Part shown: positions 23,796-32,405 of the stretch, one piece after another
Position numbering within the stretch: the stretch's first letter is position 1
Layout of the letters: every line of letters begins with the position of its first letter
Source: Acidobacteriota bacterium
Lineage (GTDB): Bacteria; Acidobacteriota; Thermoanaerobaculia; Thermoanaerobaculales; Thermoanaerobaculaceae
Assembly: GCA_003158745.1 (NCBI GenBank)
Contig: PMLC01000065.1
Span: 64,269-97,896 of the forward strand
Direction: 5' to 3'
Length of the DNA: 33,628 nt
Program-made: the position numbers and the translations under genes
Notes under the pieces: generated by a model
Database searches by the model: none
What the model was told of the DNA's origin: nothing
What the model saw: only the letters and a program-made list of their open reading frames with translations

Positions 23796-23798
23796 CTA
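23796..23798 (-). other. in-frame TAG interrupting the sensor kinase gene
   Basis: The frame starting at 24446 and that of the 21633-23705 kinase are the same frame. Between them only this TAG occurs; codons on both sides (ASDWDC, stop, then GPLGTLGGLLGPDW) read through without other stops. Without it the product would be a 937-residue kinase. Confidence 0.9.
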
Positions 23799-24446
23799 AC
23801 AGTCCCAGTCCGACGCGAGCAGCAGCCGCCCATCGTCCGCTGCCAGGAAGGCGACTCCCTGTCCATCGGCGGCAAGGCCATCGATCAAAGCGGTCCCCAT
23901 GCGTCCCAGGTCGCTCGCCACGCCCACGGCTCCGAATTCGGTCGAGGCGCCGGGCACAGACACCACGACGAAAACGGTCTTCCCGGCCCCGATTGGGTTC
24001 GACGACACCCCCAGGGACTCGCCGCCTCCTCGGCTCGCCCGGACCTGCGCCTCTTCCAGCGTGACGCGCTCATCCTCCCGCCAGACCCGCGGCGGCGTCG
24101 TCGCGAGAACCCTCCCAATGCGATCCAGGATCATCGTCGCAGCGAAGAGCGCCGGTTCCTTGAGGCGTAGCCTCTCGAGGTCCGCGGCGCAGTCGGTGAC
24201 TGTTCCTGAGTCGCTTGACCCGCACCGTAAAGCGACGCCACGCAGACCCGCGGCGACCTCATCGAGGGGGCGCCGGATTTGGCTTGCGACGAGGCGGACG
24301 GAGCCCTTCATCTGCGCAGCAGCCACTTCCTCGATTGAGCGTTCGGCCGAACGGTTGAAAAGGAGGACACCGGCGCACACGACGACCGCGACCGCGAACA
24401 CGCTCACGAGGATTCCTGAGCACCGATTGGAGGCCTGCTTACTCAT
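23796..24446 (-). CDS. extracytoplasmic sensor portion of the split hybrid kinase
   Basis: A 216-residue frame with one membrane helix (about 10-31) and an extracytoplasmic domain that looks like a CACHE-type ligand sensor (paired strands ending VAFLAADDGRLLLASDW). It lacks the second helix expected for such a sensor, which is found in the same frame in the downstream ORF. It is therefore the N-terminal part of one receptor kinase, cut by TAG 23798-23796. ATG at 24446 is 35 bp from the divergent ggt start, so promoters for both genes must overlap. If only this piece is made, it is a membrane-anchored sensor without output. Confidence 0.75.
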   Translation of the reverse strand: MSKQASNRCSGILVSVFAVAVVVCAGVLLFNRSAERSIEEVAAAQMKGSVRLVASQIRRPLDEVAAGLRGVALRCGSSDSGTVTDCAADLERLRLKEPALFAATMILDRIGRVLATTPPRVWREDERVTLEEAQVRASRGGGESLGVSSNPIGAGKTVFVVVSVPGASTEFGAVGVASDLGRMGTALIDGLAADGQGVAFLAADDGRLLLASDWDC

Positions 24447-29214: not shown

Positions 29215-31428
29215 CTACCCCTCGGGCCGATAGTCGCGCGCGGGCTCCTTGTGGTTAAGCACGCGGAGCGCACCCTTCGCGAGAGCGAGCATCTCATTCT
29301 CGCCGGGGTATACCGTCACGCCACACCCCACCGCCGCAACGAGATGCGTGATCGCGGCCACCAGCTTCTGCGAGCGGGCCATCCCGCCTGTCAGGAGGAT
29401 GCGGTCCACCGGCTCGCCGTCAAACGCCGGCACGAGAGCCGCGATGTTCTTGGCGATCTGGTAGGCCATCGCCTCAAACACATCCGCGGCCTCCCTATCG
29501 CCGGCCGCGATGCGGCGCTCCACCTCGCGCAAATCGGCCGTGCCCAACAGGTCGATGAGGCCGCCGCGCCCCTTGTTGAGCTTTTTCAATTCGTCCTTGG
29601 TGTACTCCCCGGAGAAGCAGAGATCGATGAGCTGCCCGACCGGCAGAGAACCCGAGCGCTGGGGAGTGAAGGGACCCTCGCCGTCGAGGCCGTTGTTGAC
29701 GTCGATGTAGCGTCCCCTCTTGTGAGCTCCTATGGTGATGCCGCCTCCCATGTGGGCAACGATCACGTTGACCTTCTCGTAGAACGTTTCGTGCTCCTCC
29801 GCGTAGCGGTGGGCCGTGGCGATCTGGTTGAGAGCGTGGCTGATCACCTTGCGCCGGATCGCCTTGATTCCCGCGATCTTCACCCGCTCGGGCGCCTCGT
29901 CCACGACGACCGGGTCGACGATGTACGCGGGCTTGCCGGTCCCGGCCACCAACTCGTTGGCGATCAGCGCCCCGAGGTTCGAAGCGTGCTCCCCCAGGAC
30001 ACCGGCCCTGAGTTCCGCGGTCATCGCATCGCCGACACGGTAGGTGCCGTGTGCGATGGGCCTCAGAAGGCCGCCCCGTGCCGCGACAGCGTCTATCTCG
30101 TCCATCGAGAGCCCGTGACCCGCGAGCTCCTTTCCGATGACGTTCTTGCGAAACGCGAACTGCTCCGTGATCGGCTTTCCCTCGAACGGCGCGAGCTCCT
30201 CCGCCGGGTGCTGCAGCTCCACGGTGAAGCTTTCCTGGTCGCCCTCGTAGACGCTGATCTTGGTGGACGTCGACCCGGGGTTGATGGCGAGCACCCGGTA
30301 GCGGCGGAACAGTGTGTCTTTCGGGGTCTGTCGCCATTCCCCAAAACGGTGCAGGCGGAGGACGGAGGCCTTGACCGAGAGGCGCACGTCCTCGGGCGTG
30401 CAATCCATGGCCAGGTCCACGCCGCGGAACAGGAGCCCGAACATCACCGAGAATTTCTTTGCGGCCGGGTAGCGCGTGGCGTAGAGGTGGTAGAGCAGAT
30501 TCCCCATGTCGAGGTTCGGGCAGATGATGACGTTGGTGCCGCCTGTCCACCCGGCCTGCGCGCCCGCCCGGTAGTAGGTCGCGGACCGTTGCGACAGAGC
30601 GACGCTCACCTTGACCTCGGCATCGATCTTGATCGTGGCGTACCGCGCCCCACGCCGAGTCCGCTCGGCCAGGACGCTGGGTATGATCTCCGCGGCACGG
30701 CGCACCAGCTCCGCGGAGGGCCCCTCATCGGAGCCGCGATGGGAATACGAGACGATGACGCCGTGGATCTCGGGGAGCACGTCCTCCGGGATCAGGTCGC
30801 GGGCGATCGCGCACGTCCCTACCGCGACGTTTGCGAGCGCCTCAGGAGTCATCGTCGCGGTCACCCCGACGTCCCCGAACACCACGATGTTGTGGGGGAA
30901 GATCGTGTCCGGGTGGTCGTCGGGGAGGACAAACACGCCCGCCTCGCACGGCATGTACCGATGCCTCAGGGACCGCACCATCGGCCGGAAGAAGTCTCTC
31001 GGCTCATGTGTAGCGCCGCCCACGACCATGTCCGCGTGACCCAGCCTGACCGCGCAGATCGCGAAGTGGGCCGGCGTCGAAACGAACTGGCGCGCCTCCG
31101 CCGGCGTCGTTCCCTGTCCTCCCTCGCAGCTGCTCTCCAGATAGTCGTTCGCGAACTCGTCCAGGAGCGCCTTCTGAGTTTCGAGGTCCAGAAAAGCGCT
31201 TTCCGAAAATGCGAACTCGATTCGGTTGGGATCCACGTGTCCGAGGTCGCGTGCAGCCACCTCGCGGACCGCTTCCTCACTCGCGAGGAACACGGGCCGG
31301 ATGAAGCGCGTCAGGTAGCACGCCCCTTCGAGCACCCGAGGGTCGAGCGGCTCGATGAAGATGACGGTCGGCCGGTTGCGCGGGACCGCCAGGATCTGCC
31401 GGTCCAGCGACGCCTCGATGTCGAACAT
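29215..31428 (-). CDS. fusion: phosphate acyltransferase (PTA-like) domain + butyrate kinase
   Basis: A 737-residue two-domain protein. Residues about 1-370 resemble the phosphate acetyl/butyryltransferase (PTA_PTB) fold, closer to PTA of the MaeB type than to Ptb: GHADMVVGGATHEPRDF, NVIICPNLDMGNLLYHL and GVDLAMDCTPEDV. From about residue 376 a complete butyrate kinase follows: phosphate-1 motif VLAINPGSTSTKISVYE, VAARGGLLRPI, VAHMGGGITIGAHKRG, VNNGLDGEGPF, and ILLTGGMARS near the C-terminus. The kinase part is full length (about 360). ATG at 31428 has GGGAGG at 6 nt. The predicted reactions are acyl-CoA to acyl phosphate and acyl phosphate plus ADP to acid plus ATP. Since ptb follows, the N-terminal domain is either redundant, of other chain specificity, or regulatory. 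Confidence 0.88.
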   Translation of the reverse strand: MFDIEASLDRQILAVPRNRPTVIFIEPLDPRVLEGACYLTRFIRPVFLASEEAVREVAARDLGHVDPNRIEFAFSESAFLDLETQKALLDEFANDYLESSCEGGQGTTPAEARQFVSTPAHFAICAVRLGHADMVVGGATHEPRDFFRPMVRSLRHRYMPCEAGVFVLPDDHPDTIFPHNIVVFGDVGVTATMTPEALANVAVGTCAIARDLIPEDVLPEIHGVIVSYSHRGSDEGPSAELVRRAAEIIPSVLAERTRRGARYATIKIDAEVKVSVALSQRSATYYRAGAQAGWTGGTNVIICPNLDMGNLLYHLYATRYPAAKKFSVMFGLLFRGVDLAMDCTPEDVRLSVKASVLRLHRFGEWRQTPKDTLFRRYRVLAINPGSTSTKISVYEGDQESFTVELQHPAEELAPFEGKPITEQFAFRKNVIGKELAGHGLSMDEIDAVAARGGLLRPIAHGTYRVGDAMTAELRAGVLGEHASNLGALIANELVAGTGKPAYIVDPVVVDEAPERVKIAGIKAIRRKVISHALNQIATAHRYAEEHETFYEKVNVIVAHMGGGITIGAHKRGRYIDVNNGLDGEGPFTPQRSGSLPVGQLIDLCFSGEYTKDELKKLNKGRGGLIDLLGTADLREVERRIAAGDREAADVFEAMAYQIAKNIAALVPAFDGEPVDRILLTGGMARSQKLVAAITHLVAAVGCGVTVYPGENEMLALAKGALRVLNHKEPARDYRPEG

Positions 31429-31481
31429 TCGAACCTCCCGTTCCGGCCGGGGAGCACAGGAGCTGATTGCTCCGCCTCGAG

Positions 31482-31534: not shown

Positions 31535-31563
31535 ACGCTCACGTTTGAAAGCCTGGCGACCGA

Positions 31564-31684
31564 AGTTAAGGGTTCAGAGTGAAGGGTCGAGAGACAACGG
31601 CCCAACCCAGTGTCACCAGGCCTGAAGTGCACAGCAGGAGGTTCTTGTCGCTAACTCTTAACTCTTCACTGTTAACTCAAAACT
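31564..31684. repeat. degenerate 7-bp tandem repeats, locus 3 (two inverted blocks)
   Basis: Block A (31564-31598) has five heptads: agttaag, ggttcag, agtgaag, ggtcgag, agacaac. Block B (31650-31684) has five: gctaact, cttaact, cttcact, gttaact, caaaact. Block B is the inverse of block A in type (for example agtgaag against cttcact), so together they form an imperfect inverted repeat around about 51 bp. The tract lies between the fusion gene start and the stop codon of the 31695-32405 gene. It has lower GC than its surroundings. Confidence 0.75.
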
Positions 31685-31694
31685 GGCCTCAGAA

Positions 31695-32405
31695 TCAGGC
31701 GGCAGTGACGCGGGCGAGCCAGGACTCGCGCAGGAACTTTCGGACCAACTCGGTCACCCTACGCAGTCCCTCCTGCTCCAGGACAACGTGAGGCTGGATC
31801 CCGGTGGCAAGGGCCTCGGTGCGCGCTTCCTCGCCGCCGTCATCCTCGACCAGGATGCAGCGCATGGCCGCGTGGGCGCGGACGTAGCTCGCAAGAGGGC
31901 CCCAGAAGGATGGCGCCGGGTGGCACGATGTGGCCGCGAGCAGGATATCCGGAGCGCCCGAGGGCAGGGTGTCGTTGAAGCTGACGACGCTCGCCCACTC
32001 ACCGACGACCAGGTACCGCAGGTAGGGGTGGTCCGCGGCGACGTTCGGACGGGTGAGCGCGGCGCCGACGACGCGCTCGAGCGGCTGTTTGTCCGGATCA
32101 AAGGCATAGTCGGCTCCGGCCCGCACAGCGTCCTGCTTCTCGGTGAGGAAGGCGCCGGCCGTGAGGATCTTGCCTGCGAAGCCGTTACGTCGCAAGCCCG
32201 CGATCGCTTCGAGCCTCGCATCGAGGGCGGCGATCGGGCCCTTGAGCAGCAGCGCGATGTCGTAGCTGCCTGACATCGCCCGCTCGACCATCTCCCAAGG
32301 GCGTCCAACGCTGTCGAGGTGGAGCTCCGGGTGATGTTCGGCCAGCAGCCGTTCGGCCTCGTAGCGATCGGGCAGGTCGCCGCAGAGGATGACCCGGCCG
32401 GGCAT
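31695..32405 (-). CDS. pseudo-receiver-like protein of unknown function
   Basis: A 236-residue protein. Residues 1-115 follow a CheY-like alternating pattern: strand RVILCGD, strand YDIALLLKG, strand KILTAGA, then GADYAFDPDKQPLE. The phosphoacceptor Asp expected at the end of the third strand is replaced (LLLKG), while the Thr/Ser-like position (LTAGA) and a Lys near the end remain, so it is a receiver without normal phosphorylation. The rest (about 116-236) has an additional alpha/beta region with WASVVSFNDTLPSGAPDILLAA and no recognised motif. ATG at 32405 is 2 bp after the stop of the rubrerythrin-like gene, so the two are one transcript. Confidence in the fold is moderate and the function is unknown. 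Confidence 0.65.
   Translation of the reverse strand: MPGRVILCGDLPDRYEAERLLAEHHPELHLDSVGRPWEMVERAMSGSYDIALLLKGPIAALDARLEAIAGLRRNGFAGKILTAGAFLTEKQDAVRAGADYAFDPDKQPLERVVGAALTRPNVAADHPYLRYLVVGEWASVVSFNDTLPSGAPDILLAATSCHPAPSFWGPLASYVRAHAAMRCILVEDDGGEEARTEALATGIQPHVVLEQEGLRRVTELVRKFLRESWLARVTAA

Follow-up and report, generated by a model that had tools for sequence, protein, structure and literature searches.

A conserved fusion of butyrate kinase with an N-terminal, probably inactive phosphotransacetylase-like domain: a candidate ligand-controlled kinase

Phosphotransacylases and butyrate kinases are known as separate protein families, and the idea that a phosphotransacetylase-type (PTA) domain can serve as a sensor comes from the malic enzyme MaeB. 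In MaeB, this domain is described as having no PTA activity and acting as an acyl-CoA sensor: once acetyl-CoA is bound, the malic enzyme site is inhibited from a distance, by way of linker helices and a hexamer (PMC7902834, PMC12704298). The first of these sources also describes one MaeB homologue that responded to acetyl-, propionyl- and butyryl-CoA and, for the B. bacteriovorus enzyme (BbMaeB), R581 as a pyrophosphate contact and N718 as part of the acetyl pocket (PMC7902834). With regard to catalytic phosphotransacetylases (Ptas), Q244 and K257 of the M. thermophila enzyme are described as CoA contacts made from the partner subunit (PMC9706017), and the P. gingivalis substitutions D309A, S311A, R312A and D318A are reported to have completely or dramatically lowered activity (PMC6461089). 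Here, we present a natural protein in which a putative pseudo-PTA domain is joined in front of butyrate kinase. This architecture appears to be new: no description of it was found in the open-access (PMC) literature.

The window, that is, the whole 33,628-nucleotide stretch of an Acidobacteriota contig that was analysed, contains the fusion gene (P0001) and a separate phosphate butyryltransferase gene (ptb, P0002), as listed in Table 1. ORF analysis gave P0001 as an uninterrupted frame of 737 codons (737 aa). The frame could open earlier, at GTG 31632; judging from the alignment, ATG 31428 is the preferred start, since M1 is common to the homologues (invariant in 47/47 aligned fusions) and GGGAGG lies just upstream. 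The fusion stop and P0002 are separated by 79 bp. P0002 was a full-length Ptb (NF004472, E 6.3e-96; TIGR02706, E 1.7e-91; below both curated cut-offs) and reads LTSRADSED near its C-terminus. The intergenic region before the fusion gene (31560-31690) showed, by eye, several similar short repeats of the TTAAC/GTTAA type, and the gene upstream of it (31695-32405, minus strand) encodes a 236-aa protein without Pfam match that has a similar upstream counterpart in six close relatives. Another ORF without Pfam match (216 aa; 23796-24446, minus strand) adjoins a gamma-glutamyltranspeptidase gene.

Table 1. Features of the fusion locus, in window coordinates
Feature	Coordinates	Strand	Basis
PTA-like domain / butyrate kinase fusion gene, P0001	29215..31428	-	One open frame; homologues of equal length with the same in-frame fusion
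PTA-fold domain (residues 1-361), a pseudo-phosphotransacetylase that is probably without catalytic activity	30346..31428	-	Pfam PTA_PTB and predicted structure
Ala340-Met341 codons, at the position of the M. thermophila Pta catalytic Ser309-Arg310	30406..30411	-	Alignment
Linker, residues 362-377, motif W-x-x-T-P-x-D-T-F-F-x-R	30298..30345	-	Conservation in 47 aligned fusions
Butyrate kinase domain, residues 378-737, catalytic positions intact	29218..30297	-	NF002834, 1x9j match, invariant residues
Separate phosphate butyryltransferase gene ptb, P0002, 306 aa	28215..29135	-	NF004472, TIGR02706
GGGAGG ribosome-binding-like motif ahead of ATG 31428	31429..31440	-	Read from sequence

Profile searches supported both halves of the fusion. 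Residues 17-317 of P0001 matched Pfam PTA_PTB (E 2.6e-23; 83.3 bits versus a cut-off of 24), and the PTA half scored below the cut-offs of TIGR00651 (Pta; E 1.8e-20, 73.6 bits, cut-off 311.2) and TIGR02706 (Ptb; E 0.026, 13.7 bits, cut-off 410.5), so that by score the fused domain resembles Pta more than Ptb. Residues 377-733 matched the butyrate kinase model NF002834 over its positions 3-355 of 357 (E 3.8e-135; 450.6 versus 222 bits), and the kinase half also matched TIGR02707 over positions 1-349 of 351 (E 3.4e-134; 447.3 versus 289.1 bits) and T. maritima butyrate kinase 2 (1x9j, E 1.9e-99). Among the malic enzyme models, NF009501 alone matched P0001, and the match covered positions 593-719 of the profile, which belong to the PTA part of that model; the malic enzyme catalytic domain was absent from P0001 in these searches, the partner being butyrate kinase. 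The same pairing was seen in 47/47 fusions scanned, each of which matched a butyrate kinase model and a Pta model. Profile models call the fusion 'butyrate kinase', and its PTA_PTB match might wrongly be taken to mean that the protein contains another, active enzyme.

The AlphaFold2 model, calculated from an alignment of 47 fusions (47 of the 71 sequences of at least 700 aa, these being P0001 and 70 others), had a mean pLDDT of 84.8 and a pTM of 0.85 over both domains. Its N-terminal half resembled M. thermophila Pta (1qzt; Z 32.9, rmsd 3.1, 321 residues aligned), the PTA domains of MaeB (Z 32.2) and C. acetobutylicum Ptb (7vg9; Z 25.8), while its C-terminal half resembled butyrate kinase (1x9j; Z 42.7). 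The linker was conserved at W365 (44/47), T368 (44/47), T372 (47/47), F374 (45/47) and R376 (45/47), which, together with the pTM, fits a model in which the two halves are rigidly coupled and not loosely tethered. The initial annotation had proposed a PTA-type domain fused to a complete butyrate kinase, with a separate ptb 79 bp away; all of this was borne out, and neither a frameshift or join near position 30300 nor another family for residues 1-370 was found, the latter being given as PTA_PTB by profiles and predicted structure.

We considered whether the joined frame could be an assembly or annotation artefact, or a single accidental fusion without function. We found it in 9/9 genomes searched in the genus and in two more of the family, making 11/59 relatives searched, with the own genome counted in both figures. 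An even draw from the phylum gave matches at 1e-40 in 31/297 genomes, among which one (G096) carries an unfused relative and another (G353) has its match split over two contigs. Single-contig genomes, among them G110, G165, G174 and G272, carry the fusion in open frames of 748-769 aa. Scanning of the genome contigs with the PTA part yielded 80 loci, which represent eight or more phyla and include Geothrix isolates. This count is a lower bound and biased towards close relatives, since the scan relied on a pair of short motifs derived from the fusion, by which 80 of 81 relatives were kept. By NCBI phylum, the loci belonged to Acidobacteriota (43), Krumholzibacteriota (10), Spirochaetota (4), Elusimicrobiota (3), Myxococcota (2), and Gemmatimonadota, Pseudomonadota and Bdellovibrionota (1 each), with 15 unplaced; phyla with a single genome need care because most of the 80 loci come from metagenome assemblies. 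An in-frame ORF of at least 645 aa was present at 72/80 loci (among them L054, though a contig end cuts it), and contig ends cut six others (L058, L064, L068, L101, L111 and L112). In the two remaining loci (L052 and L103, both Krumholzibacteriota) the fusion frame breaks off after 421 and 460 aa, reflecting either assembly errors or real truncations; these are the cases that could speak for an artefact, perhaps of metagenome assembly. The recurrence of the joined frame in the whole genus, in 72/80 loci and in single-contig genomes rules out an assembly join or frameshift, and with the purifying selection on the PTA half described below, the artefact explanation is already refuted. A wider Spirochaetota search (3/296 genomes at E 1e-30) added one fusion and two ordinary Ptas, and a scan of viral contigs found no relative of the fusion. 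The PTA-butyrate kinase fusion, annotated from one case, is thus a conserved protein family across several phyla.

Phylogenetic trees were built for both halves. Among 65 PTA-fold domains placed in one tree, the 24 from fusions (hand-picked for spread from 79 fusions) formed one clade (100/100), and in the butyrate kinase tree the same 24 fusions formed one clade (100/98) apart from 7 unfused kinases. As the fused sequences of either half group in a single clade with full support, a single ancient fusion event is the simplest reading of these sequences, in trees with long branches and small comparison sets. The long-branch sister of the fused PTA clade was the unfused relative mentioned above, L145, a 391-aa protein of genome G096 from the same phylum (L145:2061-3236, minus strand), whose class was represented by one genome in the search. 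L145 keeps Ser-Arg at the catalytic place (DFSRSS) and directly follows genes for subunits of a VorB-type 2-oxoacid:ferredoxin oxidoreductase. The combination of these two features suggests an acyl-CoA transacylase ancestry, and L145 is possibly an active, ancestor-like branched-acyl phosphotransacylase.

Seven positions of the kinase half (N383, R451, H481, D505, H559, R591 and E712) were invariant in 47/47 fusions, and butyrate kinase 2 of T. maritima has the same residues there. We take these Asn, Arg, His, Asp, His, Arg and Glu residues to be the catalytic residues of ASKHA kinases, as in M. thermophila acetate kinase. On this basis the fused kinase half looks active. For the genome-level analyses, 27 genomes were examined (the own genome and 26 that were hand-picked, mostly because ptb was not adjacent to the fusion), and the fusion was the only butyrate kinase in 23 of them. 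The other four (G070, G071, G076 and G083) contained additional unfused butyrate kinases, usually beside their own ptb, and thus fused and ordinary butyrate kinases may coexist in some genomes. Classical ptb-buk pairs were seen in these genomes at L155, L156, L157, L158 and L160 (G076, G070, G083 and G071).

The PTA half differed from Pta at its active site. We compared 79 rows (P0001 and 78 of the 80 loci, L111 and L112 being left out as too short; L107 without its first 91 residues; L052 and L103 included for their PTA part), with fixed residues located solely through homology to the numbering of M. thermophila Pta. The four mutated P. gingivalis residues, D309, S311, R312 and D318, correspond to D307, S309, R310 and D316 in this numbering. 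The place of Ser309 was occupied by Pro (44/79) or Ala (35/79) and in none of the 79 fusions by Ser, and that of Arg310 by Met (64), Arg (5), Ile (5), Leu (2), Lys (2) or Ser (1); P0001 itself has Ala-Met. In 17/17 Ptas from related genomes both residues were kept. The Arg310 equivalent was retained in L076, L081, L093, L099 and L105 only, and L076, L081 and L105 have Ser for Asp307. Asp316, the proposed general base, was kept in 79/79 fusions and Asp307 in 73/79, as were the ligand-type residues R133 and N279 (79/79 each). Twenty-one positions were fixed in fusions and in Ptas to different residues, including Q244 to K (78/79), K257 to Y (78/79), and A215 to D, G311 to D and N306 to V (79/79 each). 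R87, in the CoA site of M. thermophila Pta, was R in 2/79 fusions, and the K90 column was basic in 50/79; columns 87 and 287 align differently between two alignments, so that little rests on R87 and nothing on R287.

The PTA half is under purifying selection, with a dN/dS of 0.10-0.20 (five pairs) compared with 0.07-0.14 for the kinase half (four pairs); the mean pairwise identity among the 47 fusions was 59% and 66%, respectively. This rules out a decaying passenger domain. Because key active-site residues are lost, the PTA half probably does not function as a phosphotransacylase and would serve as a sensor instead of a further enzyme. The fixation of Pta-invariant positions to different residues points to a new role or ligand and not to decay. 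Some remaining or changed catalytic activity is possible, given that Asp316 and, in most fusions, Asp307 are kept, as is Arg310 in five. Likewise, CoA binding by this half is not assured, as R87 is not conserved, despite the basic K90 column.

We then considered whether a separate enzyme could supply the acyl phosphate. Among the 72 near-complete fusion loci, ptb was directly downstream on the same strand in 29 (gap of at most 250 bp, some overlapping), and in 19 it lay in convergent orientation no more than 1200 bp away (Geothrix and kin); it was further away in two, too little sequence was available in three, and in 19 it was absent from the fetched downstream sequence, these genomes having, G069 apart, a Ptb elsewhere. 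Clustering of four genes per side also returned ptb as the commonest shared neighbour (37/80 loci in the main cluster), but the 72-locus count is preferred because overlapping frames of the gene caller hid some ptb genes. The remaining shared neighbours were lineage-specific (named by sequence impression, a flotillin-type membrane protein at 17 loci, a nitroreductase-like protein at 7 and a rubrerythrin-like protein at 6), and a conserved neighbourhood other than ptb was not kept as a mechanism. In total, 26/27 fusion genomes examined had a separate Ptb, with 35-71% identity to the Ptb of the own genome used as query; the three weakest were Ptb-type by NCBIfam with scores below the curated cut-offs. 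The fused PTA domain therefore need not be a transacylase. In the remaining genome, G069 (Elusimicrobia, fusion locus L089), no Ptb was found, only a Pta; L089 is a natural test case for the activity of the fused domain.

These data bear on the possibility that the protein is truly bifunctional, its PTA half being active with a pocket remodelled for another acyl-CoA, so that acyl-CoA would be converted to acid and ATP. The retention of Asp316, Asp307 and Arg133, the genome with a fusion and no separate Ptb found, and unfused L145 with its Ser-Arg beside 2-oxoacid:ferredoxin oxidoreductase genes would fit such an enzyme. However, Ser309 is lost in 79/79 fusions and Arg310 in 74/79, the equivalent single mutants of P. 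gingivalis Pta are reported to be nearly dead, and a separate Ptb accompanies nearly all fusions, which makes this reading distinctly unlikely. The initial annotation had offered it as a channelling option, which is thereby weakened. Another reading retains channelling with an inactive PTA domain. PTA-fold enzymes pair through their second domain, and the dead domain could dimerise with active Ptb or form a homo-oligomeric core, the unstable acyl phosphate being passed from Ptb to the kinase. The adjacent or convergent ptb genes and a PTA domain that is conserved yet without catalytic residues are in line with such a scaffold. We consider it unlikely, since 19/72 loci have no ptb in the fetched downstream sequence and the conserved changes fall on ligand-site positions, not on surfaces only.

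Altogether, we favour, with a probability of roughly 55%, a butyrate kinase whose N-terminal pseudo-PTA domain binds a CoA-type ligand and controls the kinase. In this mechanism, the separate Ptb would convert acyl-CoA and Pi to acyl phosphate and CoA, and the fused butyrate (short-chain acyl) kinase would convert the acyl phosphate to acid and ATP, or act in reverse. Formation of acyl phosphate by the PTA half has most likely been lost. Its former active-site cleft probably still accommodates a CoA compound or a similar ligand, and we infer that ligand occupancy is probably relayed to the kinase through the short conserved linker and a shared oligomerisation. Regulation as in malic enzyme had been the other option of the initial annotation, and it is the one favoured by the replaced Pta residues, the kept kinase residues and the separate Ptb.

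If confirmed, the PTA fold would have taken up CoA sensing on no fewer than two occasions, once attached to a dehydrogenase (MaeB) and once to a kinase, through different residue losses. The fusion would stand for a second, independently evolved class of pseudo-PTA-sensor enzymes, in which the main butyrate kinase of members of several phyla is gated by acyl-CoA or CoA at a rebuilt ligand site, a proposal to which we give about even odds. It would also imply a regulated short-chain acid step in Acidobacteriota (Geothrix and others), Krumholzibacteriota, Spirochaetota, Elusimicrobiota and Myxococcota, and would show how ATP production gated by acyl-CoA can be built in nature, with an ATP-yielding carboxylate kinase step under allosteric control.

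Comparison with the known systems places each half of the protein. The C-terminal half is a full member of the butyrate kinases (TIGR02707; T. maritima 1saz/1x9j) by score and catalytic residues, although the fused kinases form a clade of their own. Ptb (C. acetobutylicum 7vg9) shares the PTA_PTB superfamily fold and is represented by the neighbouring P0002; the fused domain, however, is closer to Pta. The enoyl-CoA hydratase/phosphate acetyltransferase (PRK08190, NF006045) is also a natural fusion with a PTA/PTB domain, but has another partner, and its model matches P0002 and not the fusion. With Pta (TIGR00651; 1qzt and P. gingivalis 6iow/6iox) the N-terminal half shares the fold and the kept Asp316, Arg133 and Asn279, and differs in the replaced Ser309, Arg310, Gln244 and Lys257 and in a score far under the TIGR00651 cut-off.

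MaeB (B. bacteriovorus 6zng/6znj; E. coli 9krt/9krw) is alike in that a PTA-fold domain (Z about 32) is fused to another metabolic enzyme. By numbering offset, R581 and N718 of BbMaeB would correspond to R148 and N310 of the fusion (R133 and N279 in Pta numbering; 79/79), the acetyl-pocket residues Y576, K722 and Q748 to P143, H314 and A/P340, and the partner-subunit Q683 to K273. As R148 and N310 are kept and the other MaeB ligand positions differ, we expect the domain to bind a CoA compound with a changed preference for the acyl group, and to control the kinase. The resemblance to MaeB pointed out in the initial annotation holds as an analogy and not as ancestry: the MaeB rows (three counted of four, L034 being probably a long Pta) have Gln at 309 and keep Arg310 while the fusions have Ala or Pro and mostly Met, and a tree forcing fusions and MaeB into one clade was rejected (AU p 3.1e-5; three MaeB rows, long branches), which together rule out a PTA half derived from MaeB. 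Finally, the PTA domain is C-terminal in MaeB and N-terminal in the fusion, where its partner is butyrate kinase.
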